From an uncultured Prevotellaceae bacterium (lineage in GTDB: Bacteria > Bacteroidota > Bacteroidia > Bacteroidales > Bacteroidaceae): a stretch of DNA of 64,000 nucleotides. A program made the translations under genes and the position numbers. Positions 3,649 through 63,804 of this stretch are shown piece by piece (position 1 is the stretch's first letter; every line of letters begins with the position of its first letter). Where the stretch lies: positions 22,615 to 86,614 of the forward strand of contig CAMHNI010000010.1 of the NCBI GenBank assembly GCA_946186505.1, given 5' to 3'. The notes beneath the pieces were generated by a model. It searched no databases. It saw nothing but the letters and a program-made list of their open reading frames with translations, and was not told where the DNA came from.

Positions 3649-6600
3649 TTATTTCATCAGCAGTTTCTTGCCCTGCCTGATATAGACTCCCTGTCCGGGA
3701 GTCTTTTTTATGCGCCGTCCTTGCAGGTCAAACAACCAATCTTCGCCATAGTTCCGTCCAATGTCTTCTATTTCCGTCACAGTACCGTCACCAAACGACA
3801 ACACGATACGGGAGGCATCAAGGTTCGCCACCTTATCAGCGAGATCGAAATAGGCACGGAAGGCTTTTGACTGACTGCTACCGGTAGAATACCAGAACTT
3901 GTTGGAACTCAAGAACAAGCCTCCCACGGGAATAATCGTGCTTGCCGTATATGTACCGACGAAACTGGCGTTTAAACTGGGACTGCTGACAGGATTCTGA
4001 GGGTTAATGGCGACATCACTGACGCCGAATCGCGTCATGTCTTTCGTCACCTTTATGATATAAGGATGATTAGCCTCCATAGCTGTAACATCCGTGAAAT
4101 TAATACTAATCACACCTTCACTCTTATTGTAACCTGTGAACTCAGCCACCCTAAAATCACTTCCAAAGGCCGTACTCAACTGCTCTGAGTTCATGCTGAA
4201 CGGCAAGCAGACAGTGCTCCACTCGCCAGCCTTCAGCGTACGCTTCACAGACACATAGTTGACCTCTGCCATCTCGGGGGCCGTCGCTGACAGCTCGTCG
4301 AGCATTGTGACCATATAAGAAGATGTTGCCGACTGACAGCCAGGATAACTCGTTGTCACCTCCAGCGTACCCGGCTCCGTGACAGTAAAGTAATAGCCGT
4401 CAGTGCGGTAGATGCTGATGTTGTCGAGTTTGAAGTTGGAGGAATAGCGCCCCGTCACGAAGTAGAAGCCGTCCACTTCGCTGCTTGTACCATTGGGCAG
4501 AGTGAAAACGCCCTTGCTGCCATTGGAGATGGCCCAAGCCACGCTGTTCGCCAAGCGGTCCACCTCCAGCGTGATGTGGTACCATGTGTCTGCGGCCAAA
4601 TCCGTGGTGGTCTCTGTGCCATTGACATTAAAGGTGGTCATGTTTTTGGTTGGAGCGGTGATGTCGAACAGCAAATTTTTATTGCCGTTGATGGAGGCAT
4701 AATTATCCCAATAATTAGAAGGGTTAATGCCACCCTTACTCATAACGCAGAACTCTGCTCCATCCGTATTTCCAGTTTTTATGGCCATGTCCAATTCGAT
4801 GGCATACCTGCTGCATTGCGACACATCGACACCATTAAGACGGGTGTAACCATAGCGGGTATTCGTCCCTCCCAGATCAACCAAGAAGTAGTTACCATGC
4901 TCGGCATTGCCGGTTGCGATGCTCATAGGTGCTCCAGAGGTTGTCCAGCCACTGACTTCAGTCGTCTGCTCATAATCCTCACTGTAGAGTGTCAGCAGCT
5001 CTACCCCTTTCCCATTGAATGTAGCCGTGATGTTGGGTGTCAACTCAATACCGTTGTAACTGAACGTTCCGGGGTTGATACTGACGACAGGCTGCAGGCC
5101 GGCGGCAGTCTGCTGGTTGCTGTTGACAGCAAAAGTAGCTTCCGGGCAGTCAACACTCTCACCTGTACCTATAACAAGGTACAGTTTGCCATCTTTTACA
5201 GACAGCCGCGGAGTGGTTACACCGTCCAAGCCCTCGAGCACCACGTCATTCTCTATGTCGCCCGATATGCTACCCACAATGCCGATGAAGTATTTTCCGT
5301 CATAGAGACTACCGTGCATGGTGAATGCCACGACAGGCTTCAGATATTTGGGTCCGTACTGCTGCCAGACATCACTTGTCCGGGTGTTCAGCGTCAGCTT
5401 GCTGATGTTCACTGGGGCTGCTGTTCCGTCGGCATCGATATCTATCATAAGCCGTGCGCCGTGGTTCAGCGTCAGTGCCGTCGTCGTAAGTCCCTTGCGG
5501 CCGGTGACGATGCTGGCGCCGTAGTCGGCTGTGATGCCGCCGCCAAAAGTGCCGCCGTCGGTCTCAAGCGTGGTGAAGCGGTTCAGCCACACGGGGCTGC
5601 TCTCCATCGTGCCGTTGAAACGCAGCGTACCGGCCCAGACGTTGGTCTCACCAGTATAGGTCTCCGTCACGTCGGGCAGTTCGAGCACGCCATCGCCCTG
5701 CTTCACGAGCCGCATTCCGCCCGAGAAGGCTCCGCCGGTCAGCGTGTGGGTATAGGTTTCAGTAGTGATGTTGTTGTTATCGTCGTGTCCCTGTACCCAC
5801 GACGGCGTGTTGACCGTCAGTATGTAAGGTGCTGCACCGTCTTCCACGTTGACGGTCATGTCGTTCGTCTCGCACATCAGCAGATGATCTGCGGTCGTTG
5901 CGATTGTTTCGCCATTGGTCACCTTGGTTCGTCCGTCGTTGGTCAGCGTCGGCGGAGCCACGGTGATGCCTTCCATCTCGCCAAGGAAGTAGCTCAGATG
6001 GGGCGGCTGGTTGTAGGCCATCATCTGCCACACCATCGCTTGACGGTACTGGTGGTCGTTCCAAAGCGTAAGCAGGCTAAAGTCGGTGTACATGCCTGTG
6101 GTATAGACGCGCAGGTTCTGTCCGCAGCGCACCACAATCTCCTCACGCCAGTCGCCGATGATGTCGCCCTGGAAACAGGGGTTGTTTTTCGAGTCATTAT
6201 TCATGTTACAGCCACTTGAGGTGAAGAGCCTTCCGACACCGGGCTTCTCCACCTTGGCCTCTCTGGCTATGCCAGGACTGTTCAGAATCTCCGAGCAGAG
6301 GTCGCCGTCCCAGTAGATGCGGAAGTTCAGTTCGCCCCAGTCTATCGTCAATCCGTCTATCTCCTCATCGGTTACACTGCTGAACAATCCCGTCGAGACC
6401 GACCGTCCCTGAGAACCGGGGTAATTATTTGAGAAGTTGTCCATCAATGCTCGTCCGTCATCATCATCGGCCGTCCGTCTGATATACAATTCGCTGGTGG
6501 TTGCGTTACGATAGTTCATGGCTGGTTTGTCTTCGTTACATCCGAAGAACTCCAAACCCTTGCGATAAGGGTCAAAGTCGCCAACGTGCTGTGCGTCTCC

Positions 6601-8174: not shown

Positions 8175-10580
8175 ATGAGAATCAAACTACTGGCATCAAC
8201 ACTGCTGTTCACCATAGCAACCGCAGCACAGAGACAAGAAATAACACTGAGTGACAATTGGCAGTTTTCCCTGGGAAAGTCTGGAGCCAACCAGTTATGG
8301 GAGACGGTGAGTGTTCCCCACGACTGGGCTATCAGTGGACCGTTCGACAAAAAATGGGACCTACAAGTAGTTGCCATAGAACAGAACGGTGAACAACAGG
8401 CCACCGAGAAGTCGGGACGTTCAGGAGCACTACCCTGGATAGGCGAAGGACACTACAAACGAGACATACAAATTCCATCAGGTTTTTCCGGATGTGCCGA
8501 ATTGGTGTTCGATGGTGCCATGGCAGAGCCTACGGTCAGTATCAATGGTCAGCGTGCTGGCTACTGGGCCTACGGATACAATACTTTTCGCGTAGATATT
8601 TCTAAGTTTGTAAAGCCAGGTAATAATCTTCTAGAGGTTGATCTAAAGAATGTTGAAGAAAGTTCACGCTGGTACCCCGGTGCCGGACTTTACCGTCCTG
8701 TGACATTGGTACTAACAGGCAAGGCCCACCTCGACCGCTGGGGCACTTATTTTCGGACACTTCACATAGTCGATGGAAAAGCAGAGGTCGAAGTGACAGC
8801 GAAAGGCATTGGAGGAAATGCCATTGAGGTTTGTTTACTCGACAAAAAGGGGCAGCCAGTAGCTTCAGCCCATAATGACACGGACAAGAACGGTCAAACC
8901 TGCACATCTTTAGAGGTGGAGAGGCCACTACTTTGGTCACCAGAGTCCCCTAGCCTTTATACACTGCGAATACAGTTGATGGAAAACGGCAAAGTCATCG
9001 ATGAAATCAGTGAAAAGGTAGGAATCCGTACTATAAGTGTTTCCCGCGAAGGAGGTTTCCAACTAAATGGAACAACCCGCAAATTGAAAGGAGTCTGCCT
9101 TCACCATGATCTCGGTCCCTTGGGAGCTGCCGTCAACAAGGCCGCCCTCATCCGCCAGGTGAAGACCATGAAGGAAATGGGCTGCGACGCCATCCGTACA
9201 GCCCACAACATGCCAAGTCAAATGCAGATGGATATCTGCGATTCGTTAGGCATGATGGTCATGGCAGAAAGTTTCGACATGTGGATTTACCCAAAGTGCA
9301 AAAATGGTTACTCACGTTTCTTTAAGGAGTGGAGTGACCGAGACATTGAGAATCTGGTACTTGCCCACCGCAACCACCCAAGCATTGTGATGTGGTCCAT
9401 TGGTAACGAGATACCCGAGCAGGGTGACATGAAGGCTGTCAGCATTATCAACCGTCTGCAAGGATTATGTCACCAACTTGACCCATCACGTCCAGTTACC
9501 CAAGGCATGGACAGAGCCGAACCAGCATTAAAAGCAGGCTTTGCACAAGCGATGGACGTGCCGGGCTTTAACTATCGCGTACACAAATATCAAAAAAATA
9601 TAGAGCAACTACCACAAGGGTTCCTCCTCGGAAGCGAGACAGCCTCGACTGTCAGCAGCCGTGGCGTGTACAAATTCCCTGTCACGCCATCTGACCATGC
9701 CGTTTATCCCGATGGTCAATGTTCAAGCTATGACGTTGAGTGGTGTTCATGGTCGAACTTGCCCGATGATGACTGGGTGTGGCAGGATGACAAGCCTTGG
9801 GTCATTGGCGAGTTCGTGTGGACAGGATATGACTATTTAGGTGAACCGACACCTTATGATGAGTACTGGCCCAGCCGCAGCAGTTATTTCGGTATCTGCG
9901 ACCTTGCCGGGCTTCCCAAGGATCGCTATTATCTCTATCGCTCACATTGGAACACAAAGGAGCACACCATCCATCTGCTGCCACACTGGACATGGGGGAG
10001 AGAACGGCTGAACAAAATCACACCTGTTTATTGCTATACAGACTACCCAGAAGCCGAGTTATTTGTTAACGGCAAGAGCCAGGGACGGATAAAGAAGAAT
10101 TCCAAAGAGCGACTCGACCGCTACCGTCTGCGCTGGAACAACGTAAAGTACCAGCCAGGCGAGCTCAGGGTCGTTGTCTATGATGAAATGGGTAAGAATA
10201 GCGGCGAGCAAAGAGTGAAGACTGCCGACAAAGCAGACCGTCTGAGAGCAGATGTTTGGACACAACACGGCAAGACCATGCTGAAGGCTGATGGCGAGGA
10301 TTTAGCCTTTGTCACCGTTTCGCTGACAGATGCTAACGGCACACTCATCCCTAATGCTACCGACCAACTGACATTCGAAGTCGAGGGCTCCGGACGTTTT
10401 CGTGCCGTATGCAATGGTGATGCCACTTCTTTGGAGCCGTTCACCAAGCCCCAGATGAAACTGTTCAGCGGCCAACTCGTGGTTATCGTGCAGTCCTCCC
10501 AACAAGCCGGAAATATAACTTTGAATATTAATGACCCACAACAAAATTTATCAGAACGCATAACCATACCTGTCCAATGA
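8175..10580 (+). CDS. Glycoside hydrolase family 2 (beta-galactosidase-like)
   Basis: SVPHDWAISGPFD, GVCLHHDLGPLGAAVN, MWSIGNEIPEQGD (acid/base), GEFVWTGYDYLGEPTPY. Confidence 0.93.
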   Translation: MRIKLLASTLLFTIATAAQRQEITLSDNWQFSLGKSGANQLWETVSVPHDWAISGPFDKKWDLQVVAIEQNGEQQATEKSGRSGALPWIGEGHYKRDIQIPSGFSGCAELVFDGAMAEPTVSINGQRAGYWAYGYNTFRVDISKFVKPGNNLLEVDLKNVEESSRWYPGAGLYRPVTLVLTGKAHLDRWGTYFRTLHIVDGKAEVEVTAKGIGGNAIEVCLLDKKGQPVASAHNDTDKNGQTCTSLEVERPLLWSPESPSLYTLRIQLMENGKVIDEISEKVGIRTISVSREGGFQLNGTTRKLKGVCLHHDLGPLGAAVNKAALIRQVKTMKEMGCDAIRTAHNMPSQMQMDICDSLGMMVMAESFDMWIYPKCKNGYSRFFKEWSDRDIENLVLAHRNHPSIVMWSIGNEIPEQGDMKAVSIINRLQGLCHQLDPSRPVTQGMDRAEPALKAGFAQAMDVPGFNYRVHKYQKNIEQLPQGFLLGSETASTVSSRGVYKFPVTPSDHAVYPDGQCSSYDVEWCSWSNLPDDDWVWQDDKPWVIGEFVWTGYDYLGEPTPYDEYWPSRSSYFGICDLAGLPKDRYYLYRSHWNTKEHTIHLLPHWTWGRERLNKITPVYCYTDYPEAELFVNGKSQGRIKKNSKERLDRYRLRWNNVKYQPGELRVVVYDEMGKNSGEQRVKTADKADRLRADVWTQHGKTMLKADGEDLAFVTVSLTDANGTLIPNATDQLTFEVEGSGRFRAVCNGDATSLEPFTKPQMKLFSGQLVVIVQSSQQAGNITLNINDPQQNLSERITIPVQ

Positions 10581-62090: not shown

Positions 62091-62118
62091 GTTATTAGTC
62101 GTTTTGATTAGTTTGTGG

Positions 62119-62126
62119 CAAAGGTA
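62119..62126 (-). promoter_or_regulatory. -7 element (TACCTTTG) of the pectinase-ribD unit
   Basis: caaaggta on + strand. Confidence 0.55.
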
Positions 62127-62220
62127 CACATTTATTCTGAATTCAGCAAGCAATTTCCCTTGACTTTTTAAGTATTTTATGTTACGCATGCTACACTTAA
62201 GGAAATCAAAGGGAGTTTAA

Positions 62221-62243
62221 GGAGCAGCGCATGTTTCTGCTCC
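62221..62243. repeat. Hairpin GGAGCAG-cgcatgttt-CTGCTCC
   Basis: Perfect 7-bp arms. Confidence 0.6.
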
Positions 62244-62321
62244 GGCGTGCGGGTGTCGGCAACTTTCCCATGCTCGGCGTAGCCTCCTTCGTAGCACGAG
62301 GGACCGCTCAGCCGGAGGATG

Positions 62322-62336
62322 CTTCGCTTTGCGAAG
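62322..62336. repeat. Hairpin CTTCGC-ttt-GCGAAG adjacent to the 22-bp-spaced boxes
   Basis: Perfect 6-bp stem, 3-nt loop. Confidence 0.65.
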
Positions 62337-62414
62337 AACTATCATACTATCAGGCGCTAACTATCATACTTACGTTGTCTAAACACCATACTTAGGAGTC
62401 GTAAACAGCATACT
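62337..62414 (+). repeat. Four iteron-like boxes AA(C/A)(T/C)A(T/C/G)CATACT at exact 22-bp spacing
   Basis: CATACT at 62343, 62365, 62387, 62409; boxes AACTATCATACT x2, AAACACCATACT, AAACAGCATACT. Confidence 0.85.
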
Positions 62415-62436
62415 TTTGAATGGCATCTTTGGCGAG

Positions 62437-62511
62437 TGTGACAGATGTGACAGAAGAAATATAAACTTTCCTATAGAGAAAGTTGCAAAACAATCTGTCA
62501 CATCTGTCACA
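62437..62511. repeat. Perfect 18-bp inverted repeat, each arm a doubled 9-mer (TGTGACAGA)2 / (TCTGTCACA)2, with a nested hairpin in the loop
   Basis: Arms 62437-62454 and 62494-62511; nested AACTTTC (62464-62470) / GAAAGTT (62478-62484). Confidence 0.92.
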
Positions 62512-62651
62512 ACGTTAGTAATATGAGAACAAGAACCGTTAATTCACATATGCCGAGAGTCGGAAGAGTACAGAGCGTGTCAGCGGTCTTCCCTACTCGA
62601 TCGTCTATAAACTAAAGAAATAATGATAGAATCAAATACCTGTCCCCATGA

Positions 62652-62768
62652 TTCAGCGAAATTGGCGTCAGTCCGTCACGTATCAGCGACTATGTTTCAG
62701 GTCGGGCAGAGCCGACGCTGAAGATAGCCCGCCTACTCTGTATGAATCTTGGAATCACACCCGCCGCC
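62652..62768 (+). pseudogene. Remnant of an XRE/HigA-like helix-turn-helix antitoxin
   Basis: Frame translation FSEIGVSPSRISDYVSGRAEPTLKIARLLCMNLGITPAA preceded in frame by a stop and followed by unrelated residues. Confidence 0.6.
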
Positions 62769-62792
62769 AGGAATCACCGGGGACGGTTCTCG

Positions 62793-62818
62793 AAATCACC
62801 GGGACGTCCCCGCGATTT
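62793..62818. repeat. 26-bp imperfect palindrome AAATCACCGGGAC/GTCCCCGCGATTT
   Basis: 11 of 13 positions pair; near direct repeats aatcaccggg and ccgcgatttt. Confidence 0.7.
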
Positions 62819-62850
62819 TGCCCGCGATTTTAAGCTTTTACAGATTCCTG

Positions 62851-63054
62851 TTACATCTTATACTCAAGGATGTCGCCCGGCTGGCAGTCGAGAGCCTGAC
62901 AGATAGCCTCTAAGGTAGAGAAGCGAATGGCCTTTGCCTTGCCCGTCTTCAGGATGGAGAGGTTGGCTTGGGTGATGCCGATTTTCTCCGCCAGTTCACC
63001 TGATGACATCTTGCGCTTTGCCATCATCACATCTACATTTACTATGATACTCAT
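62851..63054 (-). CDS. XRE-family HTH regulator (YozG-like, small)
   Basis: MIVNVDVMMAKRKMSSGELAEKIGITQANLSILKTGKAKAIRFSTLEAICQALDCQPGDILEY-type HTH. Confidence 0.92.
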   Translation of the reverse strand: MSIIVNVDVMMAKRKMSSGELAEKIGITQANLSILKTGKAKAIRFSTLEAICQALDCQPGDILEYKM

Positions 63055-63066
63055 AAGGCTCGGTGT

Positions 63067-63804
63067 TTAGATGGTTAATTCCTGCTCTTCCTTCAAATCC
63101 TTACCCATCAGGATAATCTGTGAGATAATCATCAGCACAAGGCCAAAGACGATGTAGTAGATACTTGCAGACTCCCAAGGAATGTGGTAGTAAGCCATCA
63201 TCACAGTCTCACGGAGTATCTGTATCTGGATGTAGCCCACCACATTGGCCAGGATCCAGAAGGCTACGAGTAACCACCCTGCCGTTTCCAGCCGTTTGGC
63301 AATCTGCGTCACAAAGATTTCGCCTTTGTAGATGGAGTGTACCACTTTCAAGACGATGACAAGCAGCCAAAGGAACGGTAACAACAGACAAATCGATAGT
63401 GCGAAGATAATATTGAAAGTGTTCGAGCCCTTCTCCATAGGCACTTTCAGTTTCACTTGCTGCATTTCCACCATGCAAGTTTGTCCTTTTACATTGCTAT
63501 AGAGGAACTTGTCGTTGCCAAAACGATTAGGTCTGACAGGAACAGTCACCTCAAAGGTCGGCTTGAATTGGACATTATATGAGGTAGTGGTGCCGATAGT
63601 GTCGCACTTACCGTCAATGGTATCCACGTGTACTGTTATTTTCTTGTCGACCTTACCAAACTCTTCGGTCAGGGAATCCAGAGTGAGTACTTCGCCATCG
63701 TGCGTACTCCCCGAGTAGTTTTCACGATGATACGTGTTGGAGATAACTGATCCCACTAATACGATAGCCAGCAGAGCGCTGTAAATCTTAAGCTTTTTGT
63801 TCAT
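63067..63804 (-). CDS. DUF2975-like membrane protein
   Basis: Four hydrophobic helices, adjacent to an XRE regulator; MNKKLKIYSALLAIV start (63804) preferred over 63849. Confidence 0.78.
   Translation of the reverse strand: MNKKLKIYSALLAIVLVGSVISNTYHRENYSGSTHDGEVLTLDSLTEEFGKVDKKITVHVDTIDGKCDTIGTTTSYNVQFKPTFEVTVPVRPNRFGNDKFLYSNVKGQTCMVEMQQVKLKVPMEKGSNTFNIIFALSICLLLPFLWLLVIVLKVVHSIYKGEIFVTQIAKRLETAGWLLVAFWILANVVGYIQIQILRETVMMAYYHIPWESASIYYIVFGLVLMIISQIILMGKDLKEEQELTI

Follow-up and report, generated by a model that had tools for sequence, protein, structure and literature searches.

SaPI replication origins consist of two sets of iterons flanking an AT-rich region. The initiators of these elements are helicases in which the C-terminal domain recognizes iterons just downstream of the helicase gene and which apparently act as two hexamers, and the SCCmec helicase Cch2 likewise has a C-terminal domain that binds DNA behind its own gene (PMC7581432). 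In the PLE satellites of V. cholerae, the DNA-binding domain of the initiator covaries with the origin while the remaining protein is conserved (PMC7145576, PMC8263062), and an origin-targeting phage nuclease selects for change (PMC8263062). Archaeo-eukaryotic primases of mobile elements, among which the BT4734-like family is named, occur as fusions with a VirE-type (PF05272) ATPase and a C-terminal winged helix that has been proposed to recognize origins; the part of that account considered here gives the BT4734 family without an origin or iterons (PMC5862659). A large inverted repeat at a Bacteroidales HU-gene locus has also been described, namely the 77-bp repeat near the HU gene PG0121 of P. 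gingivalis, which is associated with the capsule operon and whose transcribed loop is an antisense RNA (PMC8757827).

Here we describe a nested palindrome in the window, the 64,000-nt stretch of DNA that was analysed. The hairpin is probably a SaPI-type replication origin left by a decayed chromosomal cassette. The findings behind this are its architecture, the position 3' of a helicase gene, the enrichment of repeats at that position, the co-divergence of iterons and winged helix, and the decay of the window copy. A SaPI-like initiator-origin module is a known kind of element, and the window element is best explained as an added case of it, orphaned.

Structure of the palindrome

The two arms, at positions 62437–62454 and 62494–62511, were complementary at 18 of 18 positions, and both consisted of TGTGACAGA twice, on the + strand in the first cluster and as an exact sequence on the − strand in the second, which gives four copies of the 9-mer altogether. 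The 39-nt spacer between them (62455–62493) had a GC content of 26%, as compared with 54% across the window, and contained an inner inverted repeat, AACTTTC at 62464–62470 and GAAAGTT at 62478–62484. An earlier note on this DNA had claimed an 18-bp perfect inverted repeat with arms that are duplications of a 9-mer, as well as a 39-nt loop with this inner repeat, and both were found exactly as described. Such a structure is far outside chance expectation: the stem folded 8.5 s.d. better than shuffled sequences (z-score −8.5), with 0 of 200 shuffles equally stable, and a program scanning for inverted repeats with tandemly repeated arms recovered the window palindrome and found no nested inverted repeat of its type in a Markov-shuffled genome of 3.9 Mb. 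The nested palindrome is confirmed as a real feature. In the 3.9-Mb genome to which it belongs, the exact 17-mer occurred at the window hairpin and at no other site, the hairpin pattern with the window 9-mer was present in 13 stretches when 85,462 species genomes were scanned, and Rfam gave no match. The P. gingivalis repeat, which resembles the palindrome in being a large inverted repeat at a Bacteroidales HU-gene locus, was considered as its counterpart and rejected because the architecture differs, with 77-bp arms and with tandem 9-mers unreported in the part of its description considered here (PMC8757827).

To the right of the hairpin, 62513–62654 is occupied by another dispersed repeat (AATATGAGAACAAGAACCGT ... 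GAATCAAATACCTGTCCCCATGATTC), which looks like a REP-type element and has copies at L014, L015 and L018. From about position 1595, L015 (G000:C18, about 54.2 kb, reversed) also carries a regular repeat, ...TATATCTGTCTTTTCCTACATCAAACCACAAC, with unique spacers of about 30 nt, which is probably a CRISPR array. A gene pair on the − strand (62854–63804), coding for an HTH_26 regulator and a DUF2975 membrane protein, is found to the right of the locus, and no tie between this pair and the cassette was seen.

The window locus as a decayed cassette

A 321-bp region of the window matched contig C48 of the same genome at 85%. It includes an array of four boxes spaced by 22 bp on the − strand (62337–62415; cassette strand AAGTATGnTnnTTA...), with starts at 62337, 62359, 62381 and 62403 and a first box identical to that of the C48 cassette; the hairpin begins 21 nt past the end of the last box at 62415. 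Immediately beyond the array, on the cassette strand, we found a 75-bp fragment of an N-acetylmuramoyl-L-alanine amidase gene (CYEGGYAEHGKVADTRTPEQKHA; 62222–62296, − strand), detected both by tblastn against the whole window (65% over 23 aa, E 6e-5) and by blastn against the C48 cassette (76% over 75 bp, E 3e-11). A tblastn search of the window returned neither a primase gene nor a DUF4248 or HU gene. In an alignment with L117, L261 and L260, the window spacer was homologous to the 80–90 bp spacer of intact cassettes and was without the central GGAAA..TTTA..TAAA..TTTCC stem present in intact origins. The AAA+ initiator helicase gene, which lies directly upstream in L117, L251 and L261, was absent at the window copy, which is read as a remnant since it has no primase. 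No cognate initiator was found near this copy, and none of the VapE proteins seen in its own genome had a matching wing. What stands at this locus is a wrecked cassette, in which origin and array survive and a piece of the amidase gene is left.

In the genomes of other rumen Prevotella, too, most copies of TGTGACAGA were orphans. L254 and L260 retained the primase tail, and L250 carried, at about 5835–6184, tandem origins with two 9-mers (the TGTGAAGGA type and TGTGACAGA) and array boxes beside each, with no primase within the stretch fetched around them. As regards retention of the orphan in two species, the flanks of L255 and L257 were too alike to discriminate.

Intact cassettes and their comparison with SaPI and SCCmec

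In C48, the array and a hairpin made up of TGTGAGAGA repeats occupy the interval from the 3' end of a VapE-like AAA+/DUF3874 ORF to a DUF4248 gene, with genes for an HU-like protein and then an amidase further downstream. The order in intact cassettes is BT4734/VapE primase-helicase, origin, 22-bp array, DUF4248, HU-like protein and amidase, and the palindrome-type module of intact relatives lies immediately 3' of the primase-helicase stop codon. Hairpins of the same type with other 9-mers were present in related genomes, and the 85,462 species genomes held two intact cassettes of the C48 primase type with the window hairpin, L261 and L251; the window 9-mer stands directly 3' of both primase genes. 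Primases of this type have the domains BT4734-like_N, VapE-like and DUF3874, and the AAA+ part of the L117 protein matched PDB 7pds, 'Similar to D. nodosus vapE' (E 6e-7), a sequence relative that adds to the likeness on the SaPI side.

These cassettes resemble SaPI Rep-ori and SCCmec Cch2-ori in that iterons stand immediately 3' of a gene for a putative self-loading initiator, an AAA+ helicase with a predicted C-terminal DNA-binding domain. Unlike those systems, the Prevotella protein carries a fused N-terminal BT4734-type primase, and the cassette includes DUF4248, HU-like and amidase genes and is known without an integrase or phage induction; the iterons here are 9-mers, in strict opposed pairs within the C48 primase clade. 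No integrase was apparent by eye near C48 or L261, so the element is not classed as a phage-inducible chromosomal island (PICI), a type marked by an integrase and att sites, phage induction and packaging. Near-identical G024 copies gave no clean boundaries for the element ends, and viral contigs yielded no close primase relatives by direct query and distant ones alone with a profile. None of the papers searched was found to describe these cassette origins.

Repeat clusters behind VapE genes

The DNA behind 60-odd VapE (PF05272) genes contained short locus-specific repeat clusters around a spacer, directly after the stop codon. With a threshold of at least four copies of one locus-specific 7-mer in the 3' flank, 32 of 64 Prevotella VapE flanks were positive, as compared with 12 of 424 control flanks (Fisher p 1e-22), the latter including at least one true VapE gene (L098), and with 0 of 1280 shuffled flanks; about half of the VapE flanks stay below the threshold. 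Distant VapE genes on viral contigs reached it in 29 of 64 cases against 5 of 316 controls. The enrichment next to VirE-like primases that the earlier note had proposed looking for was thus borne out. The spacer between the clusters was AT-rich (median 34% GC over loci), which, like the 26% of the window spacer against 54%, matches the SaPI arrangement of two iteron sets around an AT-rich region. Among loci with at least four copies of a 6-mer, the clusters were inverted in 19, in the same orientation in 5 and mixed in 28; pairing is therefore not the common denominator, and the repeat is. The functional unit would be the 9-mer and not a cruciform, and a hairpin need not form.

At L098, a hairpin of TACTTACAT-type repeats flanks one VapE gene on both sides (6107–6209 and 8890–8972). 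At L259 (2984–5392), from a Desulfocapsa MAG, TGTGACAG/TGTCACAC clusters lie directly behind an unrelated Toprim-domain ORF, an identical iteron word in a different phylum.

Co-divergence of the 9-mer and the winged helix

In 20 close homologues of the C48 primase, the spacer was homologous and the 9-mer copies varied as one set; these 9-mers were read by eye and afterwards checked by script. For 18 of the close homologues, winged-helix identity correlated with 9-mer similarity (rho 0.65), the partial correlation given AAA+ identity was 0.71 (permutation p 2e-4; 0.67 with n=20), and AAA+ identity had no positive effect on 9-mer similarity. L210 and L211 were about 99% identical across the AAA+ segment compared and had unrelated iterons, and L215 and L251, also about 99% identical there, had different 9-mers. 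Prediction of the 9-mer from the nearest neighbour was modest, with 9 of 14 correct by winged helix versus 5.3 of 14 by AAA+, and a Mantel test of repeat versus C-terminal domain across 58 diverse loci, with close relatives excluded, gave no correlation, so that the co-divergence is shown within one clade alone. In that clade, changes in the 9-mer follow the C-terminal winged helix and not the AAA+ domain.

Particular wings went with particular 9-mers: HTM(Q/R/H)GNF with TATGAAGGA, HTRAGEF with TGTGAGAGA, G(G/A)F with GTGACGATA and SQGCYY with TGTAACGAG. L261 and L251, both primases found with TGTGACAGA, had the wing HTRxGWFY in common, with winged helices 62% identical, and this motif was absent from every primase in the set carrying another 9-mer; L247 has a GWF wing too, on a contig that stops at the gene. 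A wing-to-9-mer code would be a reading from few sequences. A moderate-confidence AF2 model of the C-terminal domain (single sequence, core pLDDT about 80–87) gave a helix-turn-helix and a beta-hairpin, the latter bearing the tryptophan of the GWF motif, and Foldseek found no significant PDB fold match for the wing model.

The PLE RepA-ori system is alike in that its origin and the DNA-binding domain of its initiator vary together, and differs in its unrelated RepA_N initiator, without helicase or primase, and its ~30-bp iterons. By analogy, a similar phage pressure or plasmid-like incompatibility may drive the change in the Prevotella series. Among the close homologues, helicase cores about 99% identical carry different winged helices and iterons, a natural series from which simple binding assays, together with domain swaps in laboratory strains, could reveal the rules of initiator specificity. 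The single window hairpin is a relic, and the matched wing/iteron series is the part worth following. Repeated short words just behind VapE-type helicase genes also offer a way to find replication origins. The results suggest in addition that the Bacteroidales cassettes, widespread and unexplained, replicate or once did so.

Proposed function and alternatives

Because the protein parts match the published SaPI/Cch2 scheme, the element is read as an origin. The C-terminal winged-helix domain of the primase-helicase would bind the four 9-mer iterons, the opposed clusters would position two helicase rings, one on each side of the AT-rich spacer, the spacer would then be opened, and the N-terminal primase domain would prime DNA synthesis. 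The best reading of the four 9-mers is as initiator-binding iterons, and we infer binding, unwinding and replication at this origin. The interpretation in the earlier note is partly supported: among the functions it listed, a replication origin is favoured, this copy being a remnant without a primase, and a shallow look at the palindrome showed no pointer to a recombinase site.

It is also conceivable, if unlikely, that the multi-copy VapE-DUF4248-HU-amidase cassettes of Prevotella are an undescribed small-replicon family that swaps the wing together with all iterons. A readable protein-DNA code would be part of this (HTRxGWF for TGTGACAGA, HTMxGNF for TATGAAGGA), and orphan origins would persist because they serve as decoys or are replicated in trans. 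We consider it improbable that the 9-mers are instead an operator, at which the primase C-terminal domain would regulate transcription of its own or the DUF4248 operon and not replication. Evidence of binding would serve this equally, and the element does precede the array and the DUF4248 gene in the cassette, but the site is 3' of the primase gene rather than at its promoter, and paired clusters round an AT-rich spacer and fusion to an AAA+ helicase suit origin unwinding better. A transcription terminator or RNA stem-loop in the 3' UTR of the primase gene or of one next to it would account for the strong RNA stem and the position after the stop codon in intact cassettes, yet this is quite improbable, as the window hairpin is about 340 bp away from the closest 3' end and RNA pairing leaves the repeated 9-mers, the same-orientation clusters and the tracking by the wing unaccounted for. 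An intrinsic terminator (GC-rich stem and T-run), the simple outcome against which the earlier note had weighed its proposal, was rejected for want of a T-run, there being one on neither strand and no terminator-like site in 62100–62900. Scarcely credible is a functionless dispersed repeat of the MITE or REP kind, or an equally functionless palindrome whose arms template-switch correction keeps perfect: most TGTGACAGA copies are orphan, some at unrelated sites and one in tandem with a second origin, and template switching could hold palindrome arms identical, but the orphans retain cassette parts (array, primase tail, amidase fragment), common ends were not observed among them, and a mutational process predicts no matching change in the protein wing.

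More nested period-9 hairpins (CACAGATCT, ACGAATTTC) were seen at L117 (18865–18990 and 19209–19312) and L113 (11935–12060 and 12312–12422), between the HU-like and amidase genes and away from the helicase gene; these are outside what the origin model explains. The C48 primase (L117, 14780–17272) is interrupted in frame at two places by a similar repeat (HPSPP.GRDVQI ... NQTSPP.EGLGEA), which looks like insertion of a palindromic repeat into the coding sequence.
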